Below are positions 13,347 through 62,800 of a stretch of DNA of 64,000 nt, in pieces. Made by a program: the position numbers and the translations under genes. The number at the start of each line of letters is the position of its first letter. Positions within the stretch are counted from its first letter, which is position 1. This DNA is from Cornus controversa (lineage: Eukaryota > Streptophyta > Magnoliopsida > Cornales > Cornaceae): assembly GCA_026545225.1 (NCBI GenBank), contig CM048846.1, positions 14,285,975 through 14,349,974 of the forward strand. The letters are read 5' to 3'. Under the pieces are notes generated by a model. It was not told where the DNA came from, did no database searches, and saw only the letters and a program-made list of their open reading frames with translations.

Positions 13347-14046
13347 CTAAGAGACTTTCAATGAAACCAAGCTGTTGACATGGAATCCGTATGTGTATGC
13401 ATGTCTGTCATTCATGCCCAACACAAATGAAGAAACTTTTCCTGTCTTGAGGTTGTAAACAAGGTAAGTTTTAGATGTACCTACTAAACTGAAGATAACC
13501 AGCTCTCCATTTTTTAACGTGGCAATGGGAACCAAACAACGATCCAGAGACAAATTTTGTTTTGATAAGTAATGATCCAGAGACCTGAATTCACTTTTCG
13601 GGACATTAAATAAATATTTGCTCAATCATGCATCTTTGACTTCCATGATGGCACATACCGATCAAGGTTGGGCAAAAGTTTGATATCAATCTGTCTCCAA
13701 GCATTATCAGTACCCACGGATAATATTAAACAGACAGTAGAATCGTTTTCATCACAAATGAAAAGCATCACTTTGTATCTTCCGGTAGAGCGAACATATG
13801 TTATATGAGGATGACTTATATGCCATGTTTTAAAAAATGGGGGGAGGATCACTACTTGTTTCGTAATAGGATTTGTAACATAGCAAATGTGCTTATCCCC
13901 GATGTAAGACAAAACTAAACCATCACAACTACCAAAAATAAGCAGAGGAAGGCTGAGCCCTAAATCTCTTAACTGAATCAGTCCAATTTTAGAGTCAGAC
14001 CAGTCCAGAATCGGTTCAACAACATCCCAGTCTAGTCCAGTACATC
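13347..14046 (-). pseudogene. F-box-associated (FBA) domain gene remnant
   Basis: Read on the - strand, the frame from about 14046 gives GSCDGLVLSYIGD, then VTNPITKQVVILPPF, then GRYKVMLF and GTDNAWRQIDIKLLPNLD. This is the normal order of a plant F-box-associated interaction domain (substrate-recognition part of SCF ubiquitin ligases). After about 13622 that frame closes. The C-terminal FBA block continues in another frame (TLKNGELVIFSLVG, YLVYNLKTGKVSSF, HVNSLVSLK, stop at 13347). The NGVLYYLA-like stretch expected between them is not visible, so at least one frameshift or small deletion is present. No N-terminal F-box was found upstream before the sequence becomes repetitive. It is probably a decayed F-box gene copy; a distant first exon cannot be excluded. 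Confidence 0.7.
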
Positions 14047-20570: not shown

Positions 20571-21179
20571 TCAATTTATAATATAATATCTATCTTTGCC
20601 TTGACAAAAAAAAGAAGATAAATATCTATTGGTGATGATGATCCGACATTTGCCACGTGTGCCCACGTGGCATTTTCTCAATACTACTTTAACTTTTCCA
20701 CAAAATCGAGGGGACGTGGCAACTAGGGTCCTCACCAAGGAAAGGACCTCGGGCTACCTTGCCTTTTGGAAATGACGCGAGGAGTATCAAAGAAGGCTCG
20801 CGGACCCCTCCAAGGAAAAGGCCTTAGGGTCTGGATTGGAATCCTTATCTTATATGATGTGCAAGTAGATGTTCTCTCTTCTGTCGAGGAGTTTCTCCCT
20901 ATGGATAAACCTCGATTTGCGACGAGCTCCTCTCTACGATCAAACATTACAGGAGGTCCTTTCTGCGGATCAACCTCATAATGCAAGGAGGCACTCCTCT
21001 CTATGGATAATCCTTGCGAAGAGTTCCTCTCTACAGACAAACCTTTAACAAGTCTTTTTCTTTCACTAGGATAAGCCTCGAATGGTGATGAGCTCCTCTT
21101 TACGGATAAACATCACAAAAGATCCTCTCTACGGATCAACCTCCATGTATCCTCTCTACGAACACTACAAGAAATTTAA

Positions 21180-21720
21180 TTTTTTCCCACGGAATATTTC
21201 GTAGTAAAAAGTCAAAATTTCGTGGCAAAAACTATTTTCCCACGAAATATTTTCGTAGCACCAACCGTTGCAATATGTGGCGTCTCTAATTGTAAATTTC
21301 AACGAAATCATATTTCGTGGCAAGTTATGGGATAATAGCGACGGAAATATTTCGTCGCAATACCTATTATTTACTACGGTAAAATTTCGTAGGTAATATA
21401 ATTATTTGCTACGATAATATTCCGTCGCTAATTCTTATTATTTCCCACGAAATAATATTCCGTTGGAAAAAAAATGTATTTGCTACGATAATATTCTGTC
21501 GCTAATTCTTATTATTTCCCACGAAATAGTATTTCATTGGAAATAAATGTATTTGCTACGATAATATTCCGTCGCAAATTCTTATTATTTTCCACGAAAT
21601 AGTATTCCGTTGGAAATAAATGTATTTGCTACGAAATTTATTCCGTCGCAAATTAGTAATTACTACGAATTAAAGCGTCGAAAATTAGTAATTACTACGA
21701 AAAAAAACCGTAGCAAATTA
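21180..21720. repeat. Left subterminal repeat array of the CACTA element
   Basis: It holds repeated words of the type TACGA, TTTCGTAG and CCGTCGC on both strands. Units starting TTTGCTACGATAATATTC recur at about 21405, 21479, 21552 and 21625 with a 73-74 bp period. In En/Spm elements such subterminal motifs bind the element's TnpA-like protein; that role is inferred here. Confidence 0.75.
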
Positions 21721-22009
21721 TAATTATTTTTTTAAAAAAAAATATAAAATAGTGATTATACAAATTTATATAATCACTAGTAATGCCCATTTCTCTTGCC
21801 TATGACATGAACAAACAACCTCCAAATAGACTAAACCATATATACTTCAATGTAGGGTATCAAACCAAACATACTTCAAAAACATCCTTGATAATTGCAA
21901 CAATTGAAACAAAAGTGCTAGTTTTTCAATGTTGGTTAAATTTTAAATAAATTATACAGAAATGCAAAAACAAATCCTATATTGTTTAATCAGTAATCCT
22001 ACCAAATTC

Positions 22010-22288
22010 CTAACAAGCTGCTACAAGTCCTGTGGAGATTATGAGAGCTTGAGCAGTAGGATTGAGATAGGCTCTAGCCCAAGGTAGCATCCTCACACTA
22101 GCCAACTGCATGTTCAAAATGTCATCAGTTAACATGTTAAATGATATGTGTGTGTGTGTCTATATATATATATATAACTAAAAAGAAATGGAAAGCTAGA
22201 GAGTAATTGTGGGGGAGAAGACTTACAGTTGGTATAGTTGTAGCAATACTAGCAACAATAGCCGCTTTAGCTCCTGAGATAACCCCTT
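22010..22288 (-). pseudogene. Captured ENOD93-like gene fragment (two exons plus intron) inside the CACTA element
   Basis: On the - strand, exon 22227-22288 (62 bp) encodes GVISGAKAAIVASIATTIPT. A canonical 121-bp intron follows (GTAAGT donor, TGCAG acceptor). Exon 22010-22105 (96 bp) encodes LASVRMLPWARAYLNPTAQA, then LIISTGLVAAC and a stop. This matches the core of early nodulin 93 proteins, small membrane-associated plant proteins with a conserved VPTLVAVR, PWAKANLNYTAQALIIS block. The frame is open across both exons and the splice phases agree. The first exon was not found, and the C-terminus ends early compared with remembered ENOD93 proteins. The retained intron points to DNA-level capture by the transposon. 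It is probably non-functional, but expression cannot be excluded. Confidence 0.75.
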
Positions 22289-24346
22289 CTGTGGTTCCAA
22301 TTGGATTTTATTTTAAATAAAACCAGTAGAGTTAGCAAGGATTAAAGGATATTAAAACAATATTTATTCTGCTAAAATGAAGGGAATTAATTAAATCAGT
22401 TTCAGATATTTCTTGATGGGAAGTATATTACTCTATTAAATAGGAGATATGATAGTTTTTAGCACCAAGTCACGTGGCCTTATATTAATATACGGTATAT
22501 AAATTCATGCTGATCGACCAGTAATCATCAATCTTGACCATAAGATCAGTCAAACTAAGGCTCAATTAAGTTTTTGTGCATCATTTTTTATTGAATAGCT
22601 CAATATTTAAGGAGGTTATAGTAGGTAGAGATCAGAATTTGCAGATTTCTATGGAACAACTAAACAAAAACAAAATCCAAGAGAGAGAGAGAGATTTAGC
22701 TAATTGGAAAGTTCGTAGCAGCAATAGCTTTAGCTAAAATATATTTAGAAAGTTATGATCACACAATAGTCATGATCATGTAGGAAAGATTATTTATGTA
22801 AGTATATATTCCTAGTTTTTGGCTACTACAGGAAACAAAAGTATTTATACATAGCATGGTTTAGTTTCAAAATGCTCCCAATTACTTAAACATTTCTTAG
22901 AAAGAAAAAAAAAATGCATGACATCATGATTTTTAGGATCCAATCTAAAGCTAATAAGACATTTCAGGCCACTAATTCTAAATATGATCATCTGACAGTA
23001 TAATTTAAATTTTGTTTATGTCATATAATTCATCATTTAACATGTAGAACTTTAATTTAAGCATATAGTAATTGTAATGTCCAACATAGATATCAAAAAG
23101 AACAAAGAACTAATAATTAACAAAAAGTGAACATGTGCAGTATATAATGTAAAAGAAATCACAAATAACAATGGCCAAGTATGTTAAATAACTCAAAGAG
23201 AAGTAAATGTAACAAAGAGTGCAAATGACAGCCAGAAAGGTTTCATAATCAAGATTCTAAGATGATTCAATAAGAATACGAGTACAGGGCAACAAGCACA
23301 CACAAGTGAACATGTGCAGTATATAATGTAATAAAGATCATCAAAGTCTTTAAAATTAATGATTTCCATGATTAGATTTAAGAATACTAATAAGAACATC
23401 AGACTACAAGGACAATAATGCATGCTATAATTATGTTCATAATATAAGAATATTATGTGATTTATCACAATAATCTTTGAGAGATAAAAGAAGACAGTTT
23501 ATCCTAAAACTAATTATCTGAGATCTAAAGGAAAAAATCTCATCACAGTGTGTGAAGAAAAACATGGCAAACCTACTTACCAAAAAAGAAAACATGAGCC
23601 AACCTATCCTTCCAAATAAATTGAAAGACTAAGAAAAAGTAAAAAGAAATTAGGGCTACACTTCAATTCTATTTGTTATTCAATAACCATAACACCATAT
23701 GTTCATAATACAAAATTAACCAAACAACTACAGGGGAGGGATGCTAAACAATTGAATATAATGAGTCAAGCGTAAATTTTCAACACAACCACCAGAAAAA
23801 TGAATCATTTTCTCTCTCTTTGAAATATATGCATCTAACCTAGTTCTTAATTACAAATTCCGAACAAAAAATTTATGAATACAATCAAATCAAAAATAAA
23901 AATAAATCTAACCTATTTCTTAGTTCCAAATTATACACAGAAAGTTTTTGAAAATACATCAATCTAACCCATTTCTTAGTTCCAAATTATACATGGAAAG
24001 TTTTTTGAAAATACATAAATCTAACCCATCAGTACAATAAAAGATCCATGAAACAAGAAAATTAGAACCATCACAAAACTACTCAAGGCAAACAAAACAC
24101 AACCCATATGATTAAATTTGACAAGTATTCATACAAATGCAATATGCAAATCCCTACAAGTATACAACCATCAACTCCGAAAGTCCCCCAAAAACACCTC
24201 AACTGAAAAATAGCTAATGCGAGATATATGTTTATATATATACACACACATATCACATATGTATATATCTATAGAGAGAGAAAGAAGTAACAGAGATCTA
24301 GGGGGAGGGAGTTACGAACCTCGGGCAAAATACAACTTCAAATAGA

Positions 24347-24460
24347 GGGTTAGGGCTTCGATTTTCGTTTGATCACGTTGACGAATGTTAGGCAAGGGTT
24401 AGGGCTTCGATTTTTGTTTGATCACGTTGATGAATGTCAGGCGAGGGTTAGGGCTTCGGT
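24347..24460. repeat. 49-bp tandem repeat within the CACTA element
   Basis: GGGTTAGGGCTTCG recurs at 24347, 24396 and 24445, each of the first two followed by a GTTTGATCACGTTGA block. This gives a 49-bp period with about two and a half copies. Confidence 0.75.
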
Positions 24461-24589
24461 TACCATGCTTTGATTGGAGGAGGGACACAGAGAGAGGGTT
24501 ACGGTATTAGACGAGGATGCCGTGTTTGGGTATCACCGCGGCAAGTTTAATTTATGATGGGTTATTTAATACGAATTTGTTTTTTGTAG

Positions 24590-25075
24590 AAAAAAAATTA
24601 GACTAGTTACTACGGATTCAGTATTTCGTAGTAAATAAATCTACTATTTACTACGAAATTGAATTCGTAGTAAATATGATAGGTTATTTACCACGAATTT
24701 ATTATTTCGTAGTAAATACTTTATTACTTATTACGAAATTGGATCCGTAGTAATAGGTATTTTACTATGGATTTAATTTTTCGTAGTAAATACCTTACTA
24801 TTTACTACGAAATTAGTTCCGTAGTAAATAACACATGCTATTTACTATGATTTTTTTTTCCGTAGCAAATAACTTACTATTTACTACGAAATTGAATCCG
24901 TAGTAATAGGTATTTTACTACGGATTTAGTTTTTTTGTAGTAAATACCTTACTATTTACTACGAAATTAACTCCGTAGTAAATAACACATGCTATTTACT
25001 ACGGATTTTATTTTCCGTGGAAAATACCTTACTATTTACTACGAAATTGAAACCGTGGGAAATGGTCTGTGGGAA
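24590..25075. repeat. Right subterminal repeat array of the CACTA element
   Basis: Words TTTACTACGAAATT and CCGTAGTAAATA alternate in both orientations, giving many short hairpins. A larger unit of about 150-170 bp, marked by AACACATGCTATTTACTA (near 24829 and 24983), occurs twice. It is the counterpart of the left array. Confidence 0.75.
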
Positions 25076-26355
25076 AAAACCTGTTTTCTTGTAGTGGAAT
25101 AAAACCTTGCGAAGGTCCTCTATACGGATTAACCTCCTTAACACGAGAAGTTCCTCTCTACGGATAAACCTCGTAACAATCCGAGGTCCTACGGGGGGTA
25201 GGAGCTCGGATCACTGTCAAATGGGAACCAAGGGCTTGGTTTGGTGGCTGAAATCTAGGGTATGCTAAATCAATAGTGGACCCTATTTCTAGCTAGGATG
25301 GGGTCCCTATACTGTTAATTGGCTTGTCACAGAGGAAGGAATAGAACCCTTATGAAATGAGCAAACCTATTTTGGTCATGTAATCTCGACCCTTGTTTCG
25401 TAAATATTTACTATATCAAAACCTCGATCATTGATGGAAGAGGTATTTTTGTCTATAAATAGAGGAAAAAAATAAGAAAAAAAATTATATAAAAGAGAAA
25501 CCTTTTAAATCTACTATTTTCTCTATTACCATAAAATCAGAAAACCCCCTTCTAACTCTTCTAAGAATCCACATAGAACAGTAGACCCCTCTATAACAGC
25601 TTAGACTCCCACTTGGATTTCTACTCTCTGGTGACTATCATTGTGGAAAGTTTGACCTTAATTTTCAGGACCTACTACAAACATTTGGCGACTCCATTGG
25701 GGAGGTGATCCTTACCACTATGAGTTTTCAGAGCCAGTGAGCGAGTCGAACTCAACCAATTGATCGAGAAGTCCCTCAAGAATAAAGTGCGAGCAATGTT
25801 CAATGTGTACGAGATTGAATGACGAGATCCGCATTGAGGACCTCCCAAGGTGGGAATACCGAGCTATCTCATCATATGGACCGTCTCGATCAAAATTAAG
25901 CATAGATTATGACAGCGTTTCATAGGATGGCTACCAATAGACAATGGGTGGATGAAGAGCGAGGTCCGGTCACGCTAGTGCAGTCGGGTGCCTATGTAGA
26001 CTACCAAAGGCACTCAAGGTTTGCGGAGCCTGAGTTATCCCTCCGAGGTCCTCGAGGAGCCCTGGCACCAAGACGTCCCCCAACGCGATGAGTGTTGTTC
26101 GTTATGCCCCTCAATATGGGTTGTCTGAATGAGCACAATCAGAGAGCAACGTATCCCCTCGATAGGGCTGAGTTGGATCCTCTATTAACTCCTTATGCCA
26201 CAGTGGCAGATGTTTGAGCTATTTTAAATGTTGAACAGGGTAGCCAAACTTTGGATGTTGAGGTTGAACCATCGTATTCTAGGGCTATAGCTGTCATGCC
26301 TTATCTAAAAGGCTACCTCCAATAAAAGTTTGTCAAATTTGATGGAAGGAAAGGC

Positions 26356-26874
26356 TAGGGGTGACCACGGATCGGATCGGATTGAATTATGTATAATCCT
26401 AATTCGATCCGCGGATTACGGATTGGCAAAAATCCAATCCGATCCGATCCGTGACAATTTGCCAATCCAATCCGTGATTGAACGGATCAGATTGGCGGAT
26501 TGGGCCTTTACTCCTATTTGATTTTTTTTTTGTTTACTTCAAAAATTCCAAGAAAAAAATTCACAACACTTTTTAATTCACATCTCAAATGAACACAATT
26601 GTTAAATAAATAAATATATTGAGTTTTTAGGTTTACCCATGTAAGTATGTAGCATATTATATTATTATACATATACTTACTAATTATATATATATATATA
26701 GTGATGGATTGCCACGGATCGGATCGAATTTCTGACCCTCCAATCCGTAATCTGATCCGTGGCTAACGGATTCTAATTTTTTAATCCGCCACCAATCCAT
26801 TAGCTAACGGATCGGATTTGTCTGGATCGGATTGGACCGAATTCGCAGATTCATGAATTTTTTGTGCACCCCTA
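26356..26874. mobile_element. Non-autonomous hAT element (MITE) in the Gypsy gag region
   Basis: The ends are TAGGGGTG and its inverse CACCCCTA. They are flanked by 8-bp duplications GGAAAGGC (26348-26355) and GGAAGGGC (26875-26882), which differ at one base. The 519-bp interior is non-coding and contains many copies of CGGATCGGAT or its inverse near both ends, so it can fold extensively. Its TAGGGGTG terminus is shared with the larger hAT element that starts 78 bp downstream. Confidence 0.88.
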
Positions 26875-26952
26875 GGAAGGGCAACCCGCGCGAGCACGTA
26901 GTAAGATTCATCAAATCCTTGGGGAGGTATGCTTACGATCATGCTCTCCGAC

Positions 26953-29900
26953 TAGGGGTGGAAATTCATGTTTGCGGGTCGTGTTTGGGTCGTGTCAAGA
27001 CAAGGGTATTCTGATAAATGGGTCAACCCGAACATGACACGATTAGTAATCGTGTCAGATAGTTTCAACACGAACACGACCCACTTATTAAACGGGTGAC
27101 ACGACATGACCCGTGTAACCCGTTTAATAAATGGGCCGTGTTGGGTTTGACACGACACGACCCGAATAACCCGTTTAATGTGTCGTGTTAGGCTTGACAC
27201 GACCCGTTTGACACGACACAATTACAGACCCATTTAACTCTTTAACCCATTTAATCCATTTATAACCTGTTTATAAAAATAAAAACATTTTAACCTTCAA
27301 GATGTCTATTACAAACATCTTTAAAATACTAACTCTTCATTATAACCTGTTTATAAAAAATTAAAAACTTTCAAGATGTCTATTACAAACATCTTTTAAA
27401 TGCCAACTCTTCATTATAACCTGTTTATAAAAAAATTAAACATTAAAATGCTTATATAACCTGTTTATAAGCATTCCAAACTATTAGTTTATTCCATACT
27501 TAAAATTACAAAATCTTTCAAGCACATCACTTAAACAACTATTAGTCTATTACAAACATTTCACGCTTAAAATAAGGCTTCATGTAACACTTAAAAACAA
27601 TTTAAGCACTATCACTTAAAATAATTTAAAATTAGACTCATTTACTTTTTGGAAGCATTCCTTACAAAATGTCTTTTGTTTTCTTTTTTGTCTTTGGAAC
27701 ATTCCTGCAAGAATAAAATGAATAAATATTATATTTCAGGATATGGAAAAATATTGTAGCTGAGAAATAGTGTTTTACATTGTGTGTGTATCTAGACAAT
27801 ATTAGCTAGTGTTCAAGTTAGAGAAATAGAATTTTGACAAGTATTGTCCAAACCTCATAGATCCATAACTTCACAAGTATTTGAACATTGGGTTGAATGA
27901 GTGCTTTCTTTGTTACTAATGATCAAATCACCAAAGTCCACAATAAGGTAATCCAATTGAAGTTGCGCGCTATCTTCATTTAAACAAATCAAAAGAAAAT
28001 TTAAGATAAATTATATTGAAAGTAACTCATTTTAGACAATAAAAACTTTGAATAGATTACCTTTCAAATTAAACAACCAATCCCTAATGCATACCAAAGC
28101 CTCCACATTCTCGGGTTTAAGAGAGCTACGGAATTGATCAAGATTCGACCACCAACATTAAAAGCAGCCTCGGAAGCAACTGTAGACACCGGAATGTTTA
28201 ATACATCTCGAGCCATACAAGAAAGTATAGGATACCTAAATTGGTTAGCCTTCCAAAATGCAAGCACATTGAGGTCTACCATCCTATCAATCTTTTTCTC
28301 ATCCAAATACACTTCCAATTCTGATTTGTGAGCAATAGCAAATTCATCACTTTCAAGAATATCAAATTCCTATATATAAAAAAAAGAAAAAAAAGTAGTC
28401 AAAGAAATATTTTATAACAATAAAAGTAAAAATAGTTAAATACATAAGTTAAAAAATAAGTTTCCAATTACCTACATAATATCTCTACTCTCTTTCTTTC
28501 GATACATTGTTACATGAGAAACACTTCTAACATTCTGTGAAGAGAGATTTGTGCTACTAGAAAAAGGAGAATCATGCATGTACTTATTAAAAAGACTAAA
28601 CAAATTTTCACGGACCCTCTGGCTCTCTCTAGAATTATTACCATAAATCTTAGTGTAACTAAAAGTCACAAATCCAAGCTTGTAACGAGGGTCCAAAATC
28701 ACAGCAATAGCAAGGACCATGCTAAATTCTGACCAGTATTTTGAAAACTTTATATGCATTTGAGTTGCCATGTTATGCAAAAAGTCATCTGGACTATCCT
28801 TTTCTTCAATCAATCTCCGTTGAACTAAAAATATTTCAGGAAAATACAAATTTGCATAGCATATTTTGTTCCAGAAAAGATTTTCGTAACATTATAAAAT
28901 TCACTTAAGAAATCACAAATCCTCTTCGCTTTGCTCCACTCCTCTTCGGATGGATATTACTTATAATTTGAATCACTTAATAACAAATGACAAAATGCAC
29001 GACGATAATAAATGGCATCAAGCATTAAATAGGTTGAATTTCATCTTGTAGAAACATCTTGCCTCAAACCTTTATTAGAATCCAAAGAAACATGAGAAAC
29101 ACATTCCAAAAACTTTTGTTTTCTACCTTGAGAATCTTTAACATATTTAACACTCTCACGTATTATACAGACTGATGCATCAACTTCTTTCAACCCATCT
29201 TGTACAACTAAATCCAATATATGAGCATAACACATAATGTGAAAATAATTACCACCACTCAACAATGCATCATTTAAATTCAATTGGCACTTTAACATGT
29301 CAACAAATGAAGTATTTGAAGAAGCATTGTCCAAAGTAATTGAAAATAATTTTTTCTCAATCCCCCACTCAGTTAACAATGTATAAATTCTTTCATTTAT
29401 GATAACACCATTGTGTGGTGATGGAATGTAACAAAAGTTCAAAATTCTTTTTTGTAATTTTCAGTTATCATCAATAAAATGTGCAGTGAGACACAAGTAC
29501 CCATTAGTAGTTAAAGAAGTCCACAAATCTGATGTCAAACAAATCCTACCCTTCATAGATCCTAACAAATATCGAAGCTTAGTTGTTTTAGTTTTATGCA
29601 TTTTCAAAACATCAACCTTAGCAGTATTCCTACTAATTGGTTGAAAATCCTCGCATAAATAGCGAAATAATGTTCTAATGCCCTCATACTCAACAAACTG
29701 AAATGGTAACTCATGCATTATAATGGCAGCAGTTAACAATTCACGAAATTTATTAGGATCAAATTTATATGCATGCGTGGATAAAAATCCAGAAGTCTGA
29801 GTTAAAAGAAGCTGACCTACATCACATGTGTCCCTTCTAACATACATTTCCATATGTCGTATCATATTACCTGTTCCATTCCTACTATCAGCTACACTTC

Positions 29901-32734
29901 TTGCACTTGCATCTTTGCTTATTGTCGGAACCGAGAGGAAGCATTTCAAATAAACTCCAAACTTTAGAAGTAGTCCTCCTTTTCTTTTTTGTTGACTTTT
30001 TTTTAGGTAAAATTTTGTCAGTAGCTTTCAGCTCTTCAACTTTATCACCATTTCCTTCAAGAGCTTCAAGGTCTATTTGAATGTCATTTGAATCCATCTA
30101 CAAATTATAGCAAAAATAAAAATCCCATATCAATAATAAAAAAAAAATACCCATGTCAATAATACTAATTGGTCCACATCTTCTCTTCAATCCTCAAAAC
30201 ATTTGATTGATTACTACTAATTGATCTTTAAATTTAGTAGTCTCAAGTTCACCCTTTCTCAAACTTATATCCACTAGCCAATTCAGATTCTCAATCTCCA
30301 GCCTCAATATGGACTTCAAGTCTTGCTCAACAAATTGTAATTTAGAAACTTTAATAATCTGCAATGTTAGAGGTTCACCCTCTCACCAACTTATTTTCAC
30401 TCGCCAATTTAGATTCTCACTCTCCGGCCTCAACATGGACTTAAGTTGTGCTCCACACATTGTAAATTTGTAATTAAACTAATTGTTTGTAATTTGGATA
30501 TGTGGCCCATGTGGGTGTGAATGCATGTCATCATAAAAACAAGCTATTGTGTGTTCATGTAGCATTAAACAATTAAACAAATTACAGTCAGTGACTAAAA
30601 TATAAACATAATACTACTAATATTTTTATTAAAAATATTAGACTTTGATAAGCATCCTTTACTCACTGTCAATTAAGCAATCTAAAACATTTTTACTAGA
30701 ACAATTGGGAGATTAGAGTATAATGATAGTTTTTTGAATTGTCGAGAAAGGTGTACAATTTTATCTAAAACAGAGCTACCTATTAAAATTGAACACTTGT
30801 TACATTTTGTAGTTGGTGATGTGTGTTTGCACTATTTTACCTGCTTTATTCAGATTAAGTGACTCTTCTAGTGTCTTTTAGTGTATGTGTGTTTTTATTC
30901 TTCTTTTTATGTTGAGTTTTTATAGACTCAATGATAAGTCAGATCTAGTGCATGTTCTTAAGGCTTACTATTCTTTGTTTTTTTTCCACCCCTCAAGATC
31001 TGAATATTATTTATGTATATGTATATCAGTATATGTATATCATGATCAATTGTGTGTGCATACATGTATACGGATGTGAGTTATTCAAATTGCGCCATGA
31101 GACTTGTGTGTGTGGTGTATACTTTTTGATAATCTATAATAGAAAAGCTATAATGAGGTGCAGCTCATTATATTTCTGTTATTTTCATCTTAATCTTGCT
31201 TCTGTTTCTCAGAAATTACATATGTATTAGTTCCTCTCTTTCTCACTCAAGGCAGTGAGACTTCACTACCTAGAGGGACCAATTTAAGCACAGAAGTATT
31301 GAACACATAACAATTGGTATAATATAATGAAAAGTCTAATTGTAAGAATATAAGTACTACTTATAAAATAATTTTTATTTTTCTTTACAATAGAAAAGAA
31401 AAAAAAGAAAACCAAAACAAAATAAAACTGAAGCATATCACATCTTCAAACAGTATTACAAAATCAAGCCAAACTCAAAGAAGAGATCAATATAGTATAG
31501 AAATAACTTACAATTAATTGAAAATAATCAAAGCCCATAGGAGATAATTGACCGCATAATTTAGAATATAAAAAAAACAACATAAACTAGGAAAAATAAA
31601 ATTAAGAAAAAAATTTATTTAATAAAATTGAAGTTGGAGTGGGTGAATACTTTTGACCTTGGTGTGTTAGACAATTAGTTACATTAGAGTGTGGCAGTCG
31701 TCCTTTTATTTATTTTTATTTTTTTGGGTAGGTATGATAAGTTTTATTTAACTAAAAAAAGCATGTAAACAATAATAGCCCAAATAAATTTATATGAACA
31801 AAAAACACACAGCAAATAAGAAACAAATTAAAATTGGTCACGATTCCAACGAATAAATTGCAGCAACAAGTAAATAGTCTAAATTGAAAGTCCCTAAATT
31901 CATCCATTGAATCAATAGTATAAAAAAATTCCTTTTCTTTTTGAAATTTTATCTTTACCCAAAATGATCCTTTCATTGTCTCAATTGTTCTAAATTTAAG
32001 ATTAAAAAGTGTGGTTTCCTATTATTATAGGAACTTGTCTCACATTTGAATTTGTGGCCTTGTAGTAGCTCTCTCTCTTGAAGGGTGTTCCAGCTTTATG
32101 AATTCAATCAAAAAATTTCCCAAAAATGGAATTTTATGAAACATAAAAATAATAAATAAAGGAGCTCAAAGAATCAGAACACCCAAGTTCAACAGCACCA
32201 CCCAGAATTTCAAACATAATTGTGGACTATAGTTAGATGAATGAATGCTTACAGTTGCCATAAATGTTGCTCGCCGTCTAGTGAGAGAGTGTGAGATTGA
32301 GAGATTATGCCGGAGAATCGATGATTCGGTGGTTTTGTGACTTTGTCCAGTGGTGCTCGTCTTCAGTGGCGATCGTCGTCGATGCTCGTCTAGGGTTACT
32401 GGGGTGTTAGCGATTTGGTTTTTGGGACGCTAGAAGCAGAGGCGCGGAGAAACGAAAACATAAACTTGATGGAAATTTAGGGTTAGGCCCGTTAGGGAAA
32501 AAATAATTGGGTAGTCAGTCATAAACCGGTCAAGCGGGTTGATTCTATCCATGTTGACCTGACACGACCCGTTTACTTAAACGGGTTATGCAGGTTGAAC
32601 CCGAACCCAACACGATTTTTCTATGTCATAAACGGGTTTACACGATTACGACCCGAAACCCGTTTAGTCCAAACCCAAACCCGTTAAATTCGTGTCGATT
32701 TCGAGTCGGGTTGTGTCCAATTTTGCCACCCCTA
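26953..32734 (-). mobile_element. hAT DNA transposon, 5.8 kb, with a decayed transposase
   Basis: The ends are TAGGGGTGG and CCACCCCTA. They are flanked by a perfect 8-bp target duplication TCTCCGAC at 26945-26952 and 32735-32742. Subterminal regions at about 26965-27240 and 32540-32725 are packed with ACACGAC or GTCGTGT and AACCCGTTTA words, as expected for hAT transposase binding sites. The transposase lies on the - strand in the middle (28064-30097). The element sits in the gag region of the Gypsy fossil. About 2.4 kb between 30.1 and 32.5 kb is AT-rich and non-coding, probably the leader and intron sequence of the transposase transcript. Confidence 0.9.
28064..30097 (-). pseudogene. hAT transposase (RICESLEEPER/Ac-type), frame-broken
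   Basis: Read on the - strand, the usual hAT domains appear in order. A BED-type zinc-finger start lies at 30097-29888 (SKVWSLFEML, then RCKCKKCS). The region with DLWTSLTTNGYLCLTAHFID lies at 29949-29461. The RNase-H-like core is at 29442-29041 (SITLDNASSNTSF, CYAHILDLVVQDGL). The AVILDPRYKLGFVTF block is at 28849-28472. The C-terminal hAT dimerisation domain is at 28318-28064 (VSTVASEAAFNVGGRIL). Adjacent blocks lie in different frames or are parted by stops: 29949-29461 overlaps the BED frame, and gaps occur at 29443-29460, about 28850-29040 and 28319-28471. Some gaps might be introns, but several simple breaks are likely. The transposase would cut and paste the element in the nucleus; this copy is probably inactive. 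Confidence 0.85.
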
Positions 32735-35700
32735 TCTCCGACTCTGAGAATTTTCCAAAACCCTGACTGACAGAGCTTATAAGTGGTATGTTAACCTAGA
32801 GCCTGGTTCCATTACCACGTGGGGTCAGCTGGTGTCTCGTTTCCATACCAAAAGATTACTACCTTTTTGTTAATAAATGAAGTCCAGGGGCAGAACGAAA
32901 CCTTTTCTGACTATGTCCGTTGTTTTCATAATCAAGCAATGGAGTGTTATGAGAACAGAAATAAAGAGGAGTTGGCTAAGATTTGCGTCCAGGGGATGCA
33001 ACGAGACTATCGAATTCACCTAGTTAACCTTAAGTTACATTCCTTTGCTAAGCTAATTACGGCAACAAGGAACTTAGCTAAGGATGTGACTCTTACTATG
33101 GGGAACTTGATAGCAAAGGAAAGCCGAGGAAAGCGAAGGCCCATGGTGCTAGTGGCCGAAGAGCACAATCTTAAAAGAGGAACATGGGCTCAAGTGCCCA
33201 GGCATCTGGATTCGTTACCGCTCCCATTCACATGCCCTCCTGAGCAAGTGATGGTAATTGTTAAGCAATGGATAGTCGATGGGTCGATTACGCTTCCCGA
33301 GGTGGAGACCTTAACCACACTTGAGCAAGAGAGTCATCTGAGGTTCTGTATGTATCACTATCACGAGGAAAAAATTAACCCTGGATTCACCTGATGTTAG
33401 GAACAATCCTTACCCCGCTCACGATCACAATATAGTGGCAATGATATTGTCACACGAGGAAGACGAAGAGCTTGATCCTTGAGTATTGGAGGTGGCATTG
33501 GTGGATGAGGAGTACAGTCAAGCTTTTAATTTATTAGAAGAACTGTGTATCAGATTAGTGCTGGAGCAGCTCGAATTGTCACCTCTAGCTCAAAAAGAGG
33601 TCGCAAGGGTCTTTGTACGGGTTATGGGCGAGCTGGTTCGAGAGCTGCCCTCGATAAGTGAGGTCTTCGAGCCTTTCGAGCCAAAATGTTCTATTACCTT
33701 GGCAGAATCAGATAAACAGGTTCAAATTCCACATAACCGGCCATTATATGTTCTCGTACTTTTTAATGAGGTCGAGCTGAAAAGAACTTTCTAGACAATG
33801 GTTCATCTTTGAATGTGATGCCTCTATTCGTTTTTGAAAATGTCGATTTGCGAAAAGATCATCTGGTGCAAAAGCTTATAGGCATCATGGGTTTTACAAG
33901 CAGCTCGCAAAAGACAGAGGGCTATATGGTGGCTCAACTCAAGATTGGAAAGTTTTCAGCCCTTACGATGTTCCACGTCATTGATGCAGAGATTTCATAT
34001 CATCTTTTAATTGGCCAAGGATGGATAGATGTATGAGTTTGGGGTGGTCCCTTCATCGTACCATCAATGCATGAAAAGAACCTTGAAAGGGAAAAATATG
34101 ATGGTATTATGTTCTAAGTGGTTATTTGCAACAGGAGAGGTGCACATGGCCGAAGCCAAATTCTTTAAGGAGCTCGACGAAGAACTGAGCTAGCCGTCGA
34201 GGTTGAGAGCTACTTCGTTGCCCAAGTGGAAAGACCTATATCCCGAACCCATCAGGAGTTCGAAGAAGTTAAAAATGAAGCCCAATGAACCTTGCTCATG
34301 GAAGACCGAGGTGAAGCTCGCAGTGCCCTGCTTGCAAAAATTGAAGTATACTATTGAGCGTTTCTTCCTCCTAGATGGGAGAATGGCTTATTGACCATGG
34401 CGGTACGAGGGATCGGAGCTTAAAACCAGGGTATCTGATCCCTTTAAGTTCAGCGAAAGTTTGACAATACAAAAATCTCATGATGTGTTGGACCTCGACG
34501 AGGTAAACTTGTCTGATGATGGACCTACTCGGATTACTTATGTATGCAAGAATTTAGAGGGAATGCCACGAGAGATGTTGGTATCGTTACTCAAAAAGTA
34601 CAAAGTCATTTTTACTTGGATATTTGAGAAAATGTCGAGGTTGGATCCCCAAATGGTTTCTCACCGTCACAGTGTTTGGCCTAACATCACTCTTGTCAAA
34701 CAAGCATATTGGAATTTCAGGGCAGAACTAGAGTTCCAAATTCAAGAGGAAGTACAGAAGCTCCTCACAACAGGTTTCATCAAGCCCATACTCCATCCCA
34801 CTTCGCTAGCCAATATAATGCCAGTGAAGAAGAAAAATTAGAAAAAGCAGGAAGGCAAGAATAACAAGTGAACAAGGCAGAGGCTCGTCTAGCGATCAGT
34901 AAGAGGGGGCCAGATACGTAAGAAGAAATTGGCAAAGCCTAAAAGTGCCTGTTGAAGATGGGAAGATAACTGATAAGATAAGAAGAGGAATGAAACTACT
35001 CGACCATAGGGAGAGAAATTAAGAAGCAGAATAAGAAATGGAAGGATGCTCAAACTCTATATGCGAGATGCAAATTACTGTTCAAGAGACAGACCCTAGA
35101 GAAAATAAAGTCCATGAAGACTAGAAGAGGGACTTCGTTGTACCCTTACTTGTCTTATAGGTCATTGTAGAGTAGACCACTTACTTAGGTCCTATCCGTT
35201 GCTTCTGCCCTATCAGTTTGTTCACTCAATGCGCTTCTTTCTCTTTCAATCTCACTTGACCACAAAAGCACATCTTTGTATGCCACCACCCACCCCCTTA
35301 GCTATGGCAAAATAAGGGTATACATGGACTTTCGAGATTTGAATGCCACATGTCCTAAAGATAATTTCCCCTACCAAACATCAACACCCTGATAAATTCT
35401 GCAATGGGCCTCAAGATATTTTTATTTATGGATGGATACAACGGATATAATCAAATCAGAATGTCCAAGGAAGATGTTGAAACAACGGCGTTCAAAACTC
35501 TGATGGGCAACTTCTATTTCACTGTAATGCCTTTTGGGTTAAAGAATGCAGGTACAACCTATCAACAAGCTATGACGACCATTTTTTTATGATATGTTTC
35601 ATAAGAGTGTGGAAGATTACATAGATGATCTGGTTATCAAGTCATATCATCGGGATGAGCACCTCGCAGATCTGGAGATCATTTTCTGCAGATACAGAAC

Positions 35701-36634
35701 TTACAATTTGAGAATGAACCCTTTCAAATGCATTTTTGGAGTTAGCGCGAGGAAATTTTTGGGTTTCGTGGTATACGAGAGAGGAATAGACGTGGATGGC
35801 AGGAAGGTGAGGGATAGACATAGCTCGCCATTTCTTCACCAACGACCATGATCGCCCCTAAGGCAGGGATTTCTTTGAAATTGTACTTGACCATAACCTC
35901 AAAGTCGATTGGAGCGCTTTTGGCTCAGGAGTTCGAGGGCCAGGAATGTCATGTGTATTATATTAGTAGGATTGTGAAAGACGCAGAGATGAGATATTCC
36001 CCTATCAAAAGACATTGTTTATCCCTCATCTTTGTAGCTAGAAAGCTTCGGCACTATTTCTTGTTGCATACAGTGGAGCTCATGATGAAGTGTGATCCAT
36101 TAAGATACATGTTCTCAAGGGCCATCCTGTCCGGCCGCATGACACGATGGCCCCTTCTGGCTGAGTTCAAAATCAAATACCTCACCCCTAAGGCTATACT
36201 GAGCAAAGCACTGGCAGACCTCATAGCTCAATTTTCATCGGGGGAACTCGGGCTACTGGATGATGATTTGTCAGGTGCAGACTTGAATTTTGCATGCTCA
36301 ATCGAGGTTGGGGGTGAATGGACGGTGTCATTCGACGAGTCTTCATCTTCCAGAGGAAGAGGAGTTGGAGTAATTCAACTTCTGAAACTGGAGAAAAGAA
36401 AAGTTTGTGTAATAAACTCAATTTTGTTTGTACTAATAATGAAGCAGAATACGAGGCTTTTATTCTGGGCCTTCTAGCCATGCAAGAACTCGGCATCAAA
36501 AGACTATGTGTCAAGGGAGATTCGAAATTGGTGATAAAATATACCAACGGGGAATACGCTATTAGAGAGCCATCCTTGGCATCGTACAGGGACGTGCTTC
36601 ATAAGTTAAGCTCGAGCTTCAAGGAGCTGCATGT

Positions 36635-37737
36635 TGATGATCTGACATTTGCCATGTGTGCCCACGTGAAATTTTCTCAATACTACTTTGACTTTTTAAC
36701 AAAATTGAGGGGACATGGCAACTAGGCTCCTCATCAAGGAAGGGACCTCGGGCCACCTCGCCTTTTGGAAATGATGCGAGGAGTATTAAAGAAGGCTCAC
36801 GGAACCCTCCAAGGAAAAGACCTTGGGGTTTGGATTGGAATCCTCGTCCCATATGACGTGTAAGTAGATGTCCTTTCTACAGATCAATCTTTTCTGGTGA
36901 GGAGTTCCGGATAAACCTCGATTTGTGACGAGCTCCTCTCTACGGATTAAACGTTATAGGAGGTCCTCTCTACGGATCAACCTCCATAATGCAAGGAGAC
37001 ACTCATCTTTATGGATAAAATCTTGTAAAGAGTTCCTCTCTACGGATAAACCTCTAACGAGTCTTTTTTTCCTATAAGAATAAGCCTCGAATGGTGAAGA
37101 GCTCCTCTCTACAGATTAACCTCCTTGAAGTGATGAGGCACTCCTCTTTACGAATAAAACCTCGTGGAGGTCTTCTATACGGATTAACCTCCTTAACACG
37201 AGGAGTTCCTCTCTACGGATAAACCTCATGACAATCCGAGGTCCTACGGGGGGTAGGAGCTAGGATCACTATCATATGAGAACCAAGGGCTTGGATTCGG
37301 TGGCTGAAATCCAAGGTATGCTAAATCAATGGTGGACCCCATTTCTAGCTAAGATGGGGTCTCTACATTGTTAATTGGTCTATCACAAAGGAAGGAAAAG
37401 AACCCATGTGAGATGAACGAACTTATTTTGGTCATGTAATCTCAGCCCTTATTCATAGATATTTACTATATCAAAACCTCGATTGTTGATGGGAGAGGTA
37501 TTTTTGTCTATAAATAGAGGAAGAAAATAAGAAAAAAATGATATAAAAAAGAAACCTTTTGAATCTACCATTTTCTCTCAAACCATAAAATCAAAAAACA
37601 CTCATCTGACTCTTCTAAGAATCCACATAGAACAATGGACCCCTCTATGATAGATTGGACGCCCACTTGGACTTCTACTCTCTAGTGACTATCATTGTGA
37701 AAAGTTTGACCTCAGTTTTCAAGATCTACTATAAACA
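36635..37737 (+). repeat. Right LTR of the Gypsy fossil (uninterrupted)
   Basis: It starts TGATGATCTGACATTTGCCA and ends CTACTATAAACA. It is about 1.1 kb and rich in repeated CTCCTCTCTACGGAT units. It preserves the empty CACTA target (TTTACGAATAAAACC near 37149), which proves the insertion in the left LTR. Confidence 0.8.
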
Positions 37738-40636: not shown

Positions 40637-40920
40637 TTCATGTGAAGGCCCCGATCCTTAATCATGCTCACGTCGAGGTGTCTCTACCAGTGCCCTCGTC
40701 TCTTGATTGATAGTGAAACAACATGCCCTCCCATCTCAGTTCATGTGAAGGTACATCTCAGGTAGTTCATGTGAAGCCCCAATGCTTGATCATTATCACG
40801 TCGAGGTGTATCTATCAATGGCCTCGTCTCTTGATTGGTGAGTGAAACATCATGCCCTCCCATCTCAGGCAGTTCATGTGAAGGCCCCAATCCTTGATCA
40901 TGCTCATGTTTAAAAACTCG
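40637..40920. repeat. Tandem repeat, ~107-129 bp unit, about 2.3 copies
   Basis: TTCATGTGAAGGCCCC-type starts recur at 40637, 40766 and 40873, each followed by CTTGATCATGCTCACGTCGA-like sequence and CCTCGTCTCTTGATTG in the full copies. The first unit is about 22 bp longer because of an internal partial copy. It is non-coding and of unknown origin. Confidence 0.75.
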
Positions 40921-53812: not shown

Positions 53813-54349
53813 AATTGTAGAATGAGTTAGGCTTGAGTCGAGTAGTTAGAGTTCAATGTCAAATTAAGATTGAATTAGGGTTGAACATTTCATATATTGG
53901 ATTGAGTCCAAATTATACTTCTAACTTGCCCGACCATTCAAGTTGTCGCGTATAAGTATGTGATTAAATTTTATAGTATAGAAGAGTTATATGAAATAAA
54001 CCTACCTTATATATATTCAAAACTAAGAATATGCTAATTCTCAGCAAAATGGAAGACCACTGCATTTAATACACAACTACGTTGGATGGCCTGTAGCTTT
54101 TGTTAGTTGATAGCTGAGATTTATCTCTCTTTCTTTTTGTTTTTTATCTACGAGAATACCTATCCTCTCGGATAGACCTGATAAAATTTTTATTCGAATT
54201 CGATTTAATAATTCAATATGAATTGAATATTTATTTTGATAATTCCTTAAATTAACAAATCATATATAGATTATGATGAATCTCATTCCTTAATAATTTG
54301 ATCCAACCAAGTATAATATGTAGTGTGATTGATATACATATATTATTTA

Positions 54350-55240
54350 GAGTTAAATTTACTGACCTTCCTTGAGATTTAGTCAAATTACACTCGAAGA
54401 GATTGTTTGACCTTTATTTTTTTCACCTCTCTTAAATTAATTTTTTCGGTAAATGAAATAAATTTTAAGAGTGAAAAGACAATTTTGCTCTTACATTATA
54501 ATATCACGTTATATTTTAAGTATGATAAAATATAATGACATCCCCTGAGATTTGTTGTAATGGCACTAACCTCCCCTAAGGTTTGTCGTAATTGCACTGA
54601 CCTCCCCTATTATGATTTGAGATAATATTTTAAGATGATTTTACCATTATACCCTCAAATAATTTAATAAAAATAAATAAATAAATCTGATTTCTAATAT
54701 GATATGTACGCTTCCACGCACACGGCACCACCAATTTGTCGTTTTCCCAACCCATACCCGTGACTCATGACAAAATCCAACAACTCGGTCCACAGATCCA
54801 ATCATATGTATGTGTTTATATATATATCACCATAATCAAAAATCTATGAAAAGAAATTGTGTACGATTGATTAGATATGTTAAGAGTAAGATCGAAGATC
54901 AATGGTGGTCGTGAGTGATGATGGTGGTGGTGTAGCAAGTGTACAAAGAAGACTGAACAGAGAGAGTATAATGTAGGCAAAAATGTCATTTTAAAAATCA
55001 AAATTTTTTTCAAGGAACGTCAGTGCGATTACAACAAACCTCCAAGGAAGTCATTGTATTTTACCCTATTTGAAATATAATGTGATATTATAATGCAAGA
55101 GCAAAATTGTTTTTTCACACTTAAAATTTACTCTGATCACCGAAAAAATGAATTTATGGGAGGTGAAAGAAATAAAAGTCAAATGGTCTCTTCGAGTGTA
55201 ATTTGATCAAACCTCAGGAGAGTTTAATGAATTTAACTCT
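54350..55240. mobile_element. Long-TIR transposable element (~165-bp inverted ends), non-autonomous
   Basis: The left end AGAGTTAAATTTACTGACCT and the inverted right end AGAGTTAAATTCATTAAACT continue for about 165 bp as clear inverted copies (shared blocks CAAATTACACTCGAAGAGA, TTTTTTCGGT and ATTATAATATCAC). A 7-bp duplication ATTATTT lies at 54343-54349 and 55241-55247. Inside, a second inverted pair (GATTTGTTGTAAT... and its inverse ATTACAACAAACCTCC) is nested. No transposase frame was found. Long inverted ends are Mutator-like, although the 7-bp duplication is shorter than the usual 9 bp, so the superfamily is uncertain. Confidence 0.75.
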
Positions 55241-55692
55241 ATTATTTATCTTTCAATTAGTATTTAGTTAATGAAAAAATTAATTAAAAATGTTGTTTAC
55301 ATAGTGTTTCATTATGTACAATATTGGAATTTTTAATTATATTAAAAAAATTATAATTATTTTCTTCCTCCTATTGATTTTTTTTTACTCTTTATTATTT
55401 TTTTTCTTTAACTAAGAATCAAACATGTAATTTTTTCTCTTTTTGTGCATATTTTTGGGTCCTCTTTCTCTCTACTTCTCTTATTTTTTTAATTTATTTA
55501 AAAAAAAGTAACAAAAAATAGTTTAATAGCAGATAATCCGTTAATATTGTTGGAGTCAATAAGAGAGTAAATTGAAGTTGGTAAATTTTCGTTTTGGGGA
55601 AAGGAAAAAGAAAGAAAAAAAGAAATTATATGTAAAATTAACGATAACGTTTTCAATTGTGGTGCACTCAATCAGGAGGTTCAGGACTTGGG

Positions 55693-59800: not shown

Positions 59801-62800
59801 TATTCAATAGGTTTAATGTTCCAAAAGATGATCTATCATGCTTCTTATTTCAGGAACGAAAAATCCATGTGCCAATTCACTAGGTATGGAAGCTTCTCAA
59901 ATATTCTCTACAAGGTATGCTCAATTGAATTCCTTGAAAAAGAGCAGATGCCTACTTATTGAACAGAATGGTGCAAAAATTACACAGCTATCGTAATATA
60001 TTTTACTAACTATTTTTTTTTTTGTCCAAAAAAAAAGGTGGTTGTAACAACAAAGATATATTTTACCTTGCCATCAATGCCTGCATATTCTTCTCTTGCC
60101 ACTCGAAAAATTCAGCATCTCTAATAAGCCCATACTTTATGACCTCAGCAAACCCCGATGCTAATTCTCTTTCTGGCAATGTGTTCAGTGTGTCAGTGTC
60201 TATAAGCACACACTGAGGTTGGTAGAATGCGCCAATCAAGTTTTTCCCGAGGCGGTGGTTTATTCCAGTTTTCCCACCAACAGAAGAATCCACCTGGAGG
60301 AAGAAGAAAAACAAACATTAGAAGGCATCTGAAAACTAAATAGATGCTCATTATTTGAAAGAGAACAGAAGAATGGATCTGAAAGTTGCAGCAGACCTGT
60401 GCCATCACAGTTGTAGGAATCTGAATGAAATTAACACCACGGAGGAACGAGGCAGCAGCAAATCCACACATGTCACCAATGACGCCACCACCGAGGGCAA
60501 CAAATGTAACACGTCGGTCCAACCGTGATTCAATGGCTTTGTCAAACACTTTCATGAGAGTATCCTATTGAAGCATAAACACAATGCAACATTCACTTTA
60601 GCCAGCATGCATTCAAAATTACACATGAAATATTATAAAAACCTCAAGATCCTACCATGTCCTTGTACTTCTCACCATCTGGTAAAATCACACTCTCAAC
60701 AGAAACACTTGGATTTCCATTTGTCAAAGCACTAACAACTTTATCCAGATATATTGGTGCAATTGTGGTGTTAGTGACCACAAGAACTCTCTTTCCTTTG
60801 ACATGCCTACAAAATAGTGATGAGTTTAAATAAACAACAAAATCAGAGAGAACATAGAAAAAGCCTTGAGTTTACAAAACATTTCAATTTCTTGTACTTC
60901 TCTAACTGATCGCCAACAATATCGAACAAACGAAGCGGGGAACTCTTTTCAATAAATAAATAAATAAACTAATAAACTTGCATTCTTACATTTAGGTTCC
61001 TATAAAAACAGCACGCTAAAGTTAGTTAAACTAAATAATTGTATAATAACTACTAGAGTTTTTTTGTTTGTTAATAAAAAAAAAACCGAAGGAAACCAAC
61101 ATACAAGTACCAAGGAGGAACAAAATAAAATTCCCCAGCCAAGGGTCATGGAGACCCCCATGGGACAAACCAGCTATATACCCAATGCCAGTGCCTATTT
61201 AACCTGAAGATCCTAAGGGCGTCCAATATTTGAAGGATTTGAGAAGGACAAAGCACGTCACAAGAGTTATGGGACCCCGTTATTAGCAATTATAAGGATC
61301 TTGGAGAGAGAGAGAAGCAATTTGAGACGGCAACTATAGAGGACACTCATGTATGACTACCCAACCAGCCAAGCTCCAGAGGCAACGACGGAGTTACATG
61401 GGGCCTACTGGCCTAGGGGGCAAGTGCCCCACCTCCCATCCCAATTTTTTTTTTTTTTTTTCATTTTGTATATGTAGAATTTTGAAATTCCAAAATTACA
61501 CCCGCACTTCTAATCTTTAGCTCCCAATTTAAATCTCTCTGACAACTAGACACTCCATATTTCCATCTTTAATCCTCTCTTTGCCTATGTTACAAGATTC
61601 ACTTTCAGCTATTCTCTATTTAATAAAGAATCACAATTTCTAAGAAGGTACCAAAAAAAACCCTAAATAAAGCATCCTTATCTACTTATCGTTTATTGTA
61701 TATGATACACATAAATCATGAATATACACCAATTAGGAAAAAGCCCCGTATTGTAAAGCGCACAATTTCCTTGTTTATTTGGTTCAGTCTAATTATCAAT
61801 TGGTTTTTGATTTTGGGAACCTAACTGAAAATAGTTCAAGTTCTCAATAGAAAGACAAGTTTCATTCATTAAATTTTAATTATTTCAAGCAAGGACTTTC
61901 TAGATTTGTAGAATTCTTACTTGTTGGAAAATTCTTAATAGTATTCATTGTAAGAGCAAATGAGGGATACACTAGAACACACACACACTTGAATTTGTTT
62001 TGTTTTGTATAATTGTGCTACTTAAATATGCGTACTTTTTCTCTTAAATTTGTATGAAAATTCATCAACGACAATTGTAAATATAATAAACAGAAATATA
62101 ATCAATCTATTATTTGTTAACAAAATTTTTATCTTATTATTGTTCAACAACACCACTCTCCCCCCCCGGGGCAAAAAAAAAAAAAAAGTGAATTTCTAGC
62201 TCCGTCATTGTCCAGAGGTGGAGCAACATAGCTAACACTATGCAAACAATAACTTGTGAATCCCCTTCAAACGCATCCTACCCCAAACAGACTCCACCAT
62301 TATCAGTAGCTAAAAGTGTGACTTTAGCTTCTCCATACTCAGATGTGACCATGGACAAATGGTCAGGCCCAGCAACCTCAGGCTCAACATCAATCTTGGC
62401 TTTAGTTCTTTATTTGAGAGAATAACAGGAGAGAATAGACAGTATAAAACAAGAGAAGCAAAGAAAGATTAAGCTTATTAAAGTTCGTCAATTTGGCTTT
62501 AAAAACTTGTGTTATTTTTATCTGCCTCTATTTCTCTCCAAATCACTTCATCTTTGGAGTGATAGCCTTTGAGGTACTGGAAGTACATATTATCTCCTGA
62601 TAACTCCATCTAATTTTTTTTCTCCCCTCATTAAGTGAACCAAACCATTAAAAGATGAGAGATTTAAAGTTTCTCTTCTTCTCTCTTCCTCCTAATCAAA
62701 CCGTATGGTACTTCTTACTCAACGGCGTCGTGTAGGGAAGACCAGCTCTAATTAGCAGCTTCATGATCCTGCACCCAATAAAACTGGGGAGGACTTACAG

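Follow-up and report, generated by a model that had tools for sequence, protein, structure and literature searches.

The window, a stretch of 64,000 nt from Cornus controversa, contains a CACTA-type transposable element of 3,934 bp (21163-25096) that lies within an LTR-like repeat and holds, on its minus strand, two exons and the intervening intron of an ENOD93 gene fragment (Table 1). The element opens with CACTACAAGAAA and closes with TTTCTTGTAGTG; both ends read CACTACAAGAAA inwards, forming perfect terminal inverted repeats of 12 bp, and a longer comparison finds agreement at 23 of the first 28 bp of the two ends. The trinucleotide GAA directly adjoins the element on either side. A 3.9 kb CACTA element with perfect ends and a GAA duplication had been proposed in the first-pass annotation, and both features are present as described.

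Table 1. Positions in the window of the CACTA-type element, its ENOD93 cargo and the repeats around it
Feature	Position	Strand	Characteristics
CACTA-type element, whole	21163..25096	- (strand of the cargo)	terminal repeats, GAA duplication, empty site in related repeat
Left terminal inverted repeat	21163..21174	+	CACTACAAGAAA
Right terminal inverted repeat	25085..25096	-	
GAA target-site duplication, left copy	21160..21162		
GAA target-site duplication, right copy	25097..25099		
Left subterminal repeat array	21281..21730		periods of ~73 and ~147 bp, with shorter units
Right subterminal repeat array	24563..25063		periods of ~80 and ~154 bp; inverted pairs, TTACTACGAAAT / CGTAGTAA type motifs
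ENOD93 exon A	~22295 to 22227	-	23 codons; profile positions 9-31
Retained intron	22226-22106	-	121 bp; GTAAGT...TGCAG; phase 0
ENOD93 exon B	22105-22013	-	31 codons; profile positions 32-61
TAG stop	22012-22010	-	closes the ENOD93 frame at profile position 61/78
Candidate transcription leader	24320..24560	-	proposed from composition only
LTR-like repeat split by the element, left part	20633..21162	+	
LTR-like repeat split by the element, right part	25097..25683	+	
Related LTR-like repeat lacking the element (empty-site relative)	36632..37737	+	

Inside the terminal repeats, the subterminal arrays at both ends are composed of short repeats whose motifs include TTACTACG and CGTAGTAA. The single-strand folding of the right end (24563-25096) is stronger than that of all 100 of 100 shuffled sequences (z -14), as expected for a region with dense inverted repeats. 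CACTA elements generate 3-bp target-site duplications and have subterminal repeats of several hundred bp (PMC8978399). The CACTA-initial terminal inverted repeats, the 3-bp target-site duplication and the direct and inverted subterminal repeats place the present element in the CACTA (En/Spm) superfamily.

The target of the insertion is also represented in the window. In particular, a self-comparison of the window aligns the two flanks of the element to one unbroken stretch, the related LTR-like repeat. The two copies, each about 1.1 kb long with TG at the start and CA at the end, are 87.5% identical across 1,088 aligned columns, a value whose uncertainty amounts to a few junction bases at most. 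When the element is removed and one GAA is retained, the alignment is continuous through the junction, where both copies read ACGAATAAAACC, and the empty-site relative has a single GAA at the position corresponding to the insertion. The copies do differ near the junction, with a 12-bp gap about 13 bases leftward and agreement at 28 of 40 bases in an ungapped comparison around it. The relative that lacks the CACTA element also has no ENOD93 exon. The first-pass annotation had named two observations that would speak against its reading: the lack of an ENOD93-family match for the exon translations, and the presence of these exons in an ordinary chromosomal ENOD93 gene at this locus in relatives without the CACTA ends. 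Both outcomes, as far as they go, favour capture: the protein search does match ENOD93, and what is found for the second is an empty site in a related LTR of the same window, the comparison being with a related repeat and not with the same locus in a relative species.

This alignment bears directly on whether the exons belong to an ENOD93 gene or pseudogene resident at this chromosomal site, with CACTA-like ends flanking it by chance. ENOD93 genes can cluster, and seven of them lie in one region of rice (PMC3053390), so a multi-copy parental locus would be unsurprising; nothing else favours a resident gene. Against it, the related LTR aligns across the site, where it lacks the entire 3.9 kb and has one GAA, and perfect 12-bp ends together with subterminal arrays are found on both sides. 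A resident gene is thus extremely improbable and is rejected, as it is contradicted by the empty LTR relative.

The divergence between the two LTR-like copies indicates that the retroelement is old, and the nesting indicates that the CACTA insertion is younger than the retroelement. The retroelement spanned by the LTR-like pair (20633-37737) has RNase H and RVT_3 matches at 35824-36722, where open reading frames beside the second LTR copy match retroelement RNase H domains (35824-36474 and 36318-36722). It looks rearranged, since a scan of 10 of the 22 long open reading frames gave no integrase match and the outer ends of the pair have 5-bp flanks that do not agree. Between the LTR copies the minus strand also holds a hAT-type transposase that seems to be broken (28475-30027); its hAT-like RNase H domain (28475-28891) is matched with E=9e-29, while two open reading frames neighbouring that domain have no Pfam match.

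The cargo was identified by comparing its translation with protein family profiles. The spliced 54-aa peptide matches the ENOD93 profile PF03386 with E=2e-22 and 79.3 bits, where the curated Pfam cut-off is 25 bits, which excludes chance as the source of the match. Taken separately, exon B with ten preceding intron-derived residues reaches 46.2 bits (E=4e-12), and exon A with four preceding residues reaches 23.2 bits (E=6e-5), under the cut-off of 25; in a six-frame scan of the element, exon A scores 19.6 bits and is again under the cut-off. The two halves of the profile abut exactly at the splice junction, with zero positions lost or duplicated, and the intron is consequently very likely parental, captured from DNA together with the exons. 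The earlier reading of two exons with matching phase around a canonical 121-bp intron therefore holds (GT-AG, phase 0), as does the ENOD93 identity assigned to them, and the retained intron supports the proposal that capture took place at the DNA level. The captured intron includes a TG/TA simple repeat at 22146-22177, which might provide a marker to tell sibling or parental copies apart.

The fragment is incomplete at both ends of the domain. The match spans 53 of the 78 profile positions (9-61), leaving positions 1-8 and 62-78 unmatched, and a six-frame Pfam scan with stops read as X found no significant match to the remainder of the ENOD93 domain elsewhere in the element. Exon A has no in-frame ATG and is preceded, four codons upstream, by a stop in the same frame; once the exons are spliced, their frame has its first ATG in exon B, within the conserved core. 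If the RNA were left unspliced, an ATG inside the intron would open a 41-aa frame into exon B. The fragment accordingly does not combine the complete domain, open frame and start codon that a functional PF03386 gene has, and because both domain ends are missing no ENOD93 protein function is expected from it. The claim that the frame is still open is correct for the 54 codons themselves and fails for the fragment as a coding unit, given the absence of an ATG in exon A, the TAG and the loss of both domain ends. Further, the element core, which includes the ENOD93 exons, offers 2,638 start positions per strand, and a contiguous open window of 54 codons begins at 72 of those on the minus strand and at 7 of those on the plus strand; the openness of the frame by itself says little about selection.

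Past the TAG, with stops read as X, the ENOD93 match still ends at profile position 61 (81.6 bits). When three further codons of the tail past the TAG are omitted by hand, the match extends to position 70 with 82.9 bits, within the 79.6-83.1 bits obtained for 9 hand-made scrambles of the tail; one of the 9 scrambles scored as high as the real tail (83.1 bits), and none of the 9 aligned beyond position 64. At the other edge, the minus-strand sequence CACAG|AAGGGG at about 22290 resembles the acceptor of a preceding intron. Judged from these letters, the upstream edge of exon A would be either this acceptor-like site or a capture breakpoint, and exon A may represent an internal exon in its entirety.

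The rest of the element has little recognisable content. A six-frame Pfam scan recognised no transposase domain, with the limit that remnants too divergent for Pfam would escape it. With stops read as X, ENOD93 is the only family above its cut-off in the whole element, and other captured genes were not found; the same scan gave no match above cut-off between about 22300 and 24300. A plus-strand match to Csd3_N at about 23559-23702 (E=0.005, 17.4 bits against a cut-off of 27) is taken as chance. The absence of a transposase domain is relevant to the element's autonomy, not to its membership of the CACTA (En/Spm) superfamily, and makes the element most likely non-autonomous and of the Pack-CACTA type. 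In agreement with the definition of Pack-TYPE elements, host-gene coding sequence (22013-22295) is enclosed between terminal repeats with no recognised transposase. In the self-comparison, no second copy of the element was found within the window, where a single marginal match of 38 bp was obtained. Searches for relatives elsewhere gave 59 pattern matches in a viral contig scan, of which 0 were confirmed, and two matches in a PDB sequence search, whose E values of 3.9 and 9.2 are taken as chance.

Several systems in which CACTA elements carry host sequence are available for comparison. Pack-CACTA elements are known in Arabidopsis and maize, those of Arabidopsis having CACTACAA ends; like the element described here, they have CACTA-type ends, a target duplication and a gene-derived interior with no recognised transposase (PMC8903248). 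The Chenopodium CACTA elements, which contain captured gene fragments, share with it the subterminal repeats and the presence of a short gene fragment; transposase domains are found in the ones described (PMC8978399), whereas none is recognised here. In soybean, the 5.7 kb CACTA element Tgm-Express1 of the wp allele lies in an intron of F3H and carries five gene fragments, which retain exons, introns and canonical splice sites as the ENOD93 fragment does (PMC1947982). In contrast to those five fragments in an F3H intron, the present element has one recognised fragment and lies in an LTR. Among the matches listed in a search of titles and abstract openings in the open-licence PMC literature, there is no report of ENOD93 capture by a transposon, which is not proof of absence.

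Overall, the observations are best explained by a non-autonomous, Pack-CACTA-type transposon that acquired a genomic piece of ENOD93 and later inserted, as a single unit, into an LTR belonging to an older retroelement, a reading that can be held with high confidence. The confidences given to this reading and to its rivals are not mutually exclusive. In the earlier step, a genomic ENOD93 piece, consisting of two internal exons with their intervening intron, would have been taken into a CACTA element, probably through aberrant excision or repair involving adjacent CACTA ends. In the published model of CACTA capture, neighbouring insertions are mobilised or excised jointly, resulting in a hybrid element that encloses the intervening DNA (PMC8903248; PMC13317346). 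The lack of a transposase domain suggests that transposase would have been supplied in trans from elsewhere. In the later step, the element and its cargo would have inserted together into the LTR.

The ENOD93 piece may instead have entered an existing CACTA element by a separate insertion, or as filler during repair, and not between neighbouring CACTA ends. Such a route would be compatible with the fact that nothing recognised in the element marks the limits of the captured DNA. Repair filler is itself one of the proposed capture routes, and this alternative differs from the preferred reading in mechanism more than in outcome; a spliced retrocopy is disfavoured by the retained intron. Entry by such a route is considered unlikely.

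A different question is whether the fragment, once captured, has acquired a role. The first-pass annotation suggested that capture of this kind may carry the sequence to new promoters or lead to silencing RNAs. The G+C content of the element peaks in the 200-bp block 24363-24562 (47%, against 24-39% in the other blocks), immediately inward of the right subterminal array. This block holds a 49-bp tandem repeat, is C-rich on the minus strand and resembles an untranslated leader. Maize Spm has a G+C-rich leader in a similar place. If the right end were the promoter end, to judge by this composition and layout, the ENOD93 exons would lie downstream in the sense orientation. Any minus-strand transcription could then splice the exons in sense, and would give a truncated chimeric RNA that is probably non-functional.

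Recruitment of the fragment would mean that the leader is spliced to the ENOD93 exons. The product, either a truncated peptide or an RNA with a regulatory role, would act on the parental ENOD93 and, through it, on cytochrome oxidase. The cargo does lie in sense to the G+C-rich candidate leader (24320-24560), its intron signals are intact and its frame is continuous across both exons. There is also a precedent in Tgm-Express1, the exons of whose fragments are spliced into chimeric transcripts; the transcripts isolated there, however, started at the promoter of the host gene F3H, not in the element (PMC1947982). Recruitment is further opposed by the splice signals and by the frame. The donor-like GTs at the end of the candidate leader (24319 and 24315) are weak and off the GTRAGT consensus, and a minus-strand scan for GTRAGT found three sites (24877, 23580 and 22226) with none at the leader's end. 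The lack of an in-frame ATG in exon A, a first spliced-frame ATG that falls inside the core, and the stop at position 61 of 78 likewise count against a recruited product. Recruitment is accordingly improbable, somewhat more so than entry of the piece by a separate insertion. It is more doubtful still, to the point of being a long shot, that the right end makes a sense, spliced RNA with the ENOD93 exons and that this RNA, small RNAs or a truncated peptide modulates the parental ENOD93 and through it respiratory complex IV; if true, a regulator of mitochondrial respiration would be carried by a transposon.

Rfam (gathering threshold) and ARAGORN scans of the window gave 0 matches each. Elsewhere in the window, a fold-back element of about 894 bp at 54348-55241 has 223-bp inverted arms that are 82% alike and is bordered immediately on either side by TTATTT; it is perhaps a fold-back MITE with a TTATTT target duplication. 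An exon of a 3-dehydroquinate synthase gene lies on the minus strand at 60196-60564 (Pfam E=1e-19; best PDB sequence match 3zok, E=1e-29). A minus-strand fragment at 13625-14044 has weak matches, under the curated cut-offs, to beta-propeller families of F-box proteins, and a tandem duplication of about 120 bp with 86% identity occupies 40637-40884.

The ENOD93 family is distributed across plants and other eukaryotes and acts at mitochondrial cytochrome c oxidase (complex IV); the family has a relative in the N-terminal portion of yeast RCF2, and its plant-type members have about 90-130 residues with, typically, two predicted helices (PMC11530774). The cargo has the domain core in common with these genes (E=2e-22), and differs from them in having only 54 codons and no usable upstream start codon in exon A. 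Describing it as a nodulin-family sequence, as the first-pass annotation did, is an overstatement, since ENOD93 is a mitochondrial complex IV factor that occurs throughout plants (PMC11530774), and the name should not be taken to imply symbiosis in this host. Because ENOD93 acts at cytochrome oxidase, the consequences of any influence on the parent gene would lie in respiration and nitrogen use and would reach beyond nodulation (PMC11530774).

The captured ENOD93 fragment is taken to be a passenger of the Pack-CACTA-type element. Capture of gene fragments by CACTA elements is well known in kind, and the element at 21163-25096 is a new example of it, not evidence of a new mechanism. As a case of CACTA capture it is clean, with both ends, the target duplication and the empty relative of the target in one window, and with exons that retain their intron. 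It is thereby useful for studying how CACTA elements acquire DNA, and for the cleaning of gene annotations, because such a fragment is readily mistaken for an ENOD93 gene.
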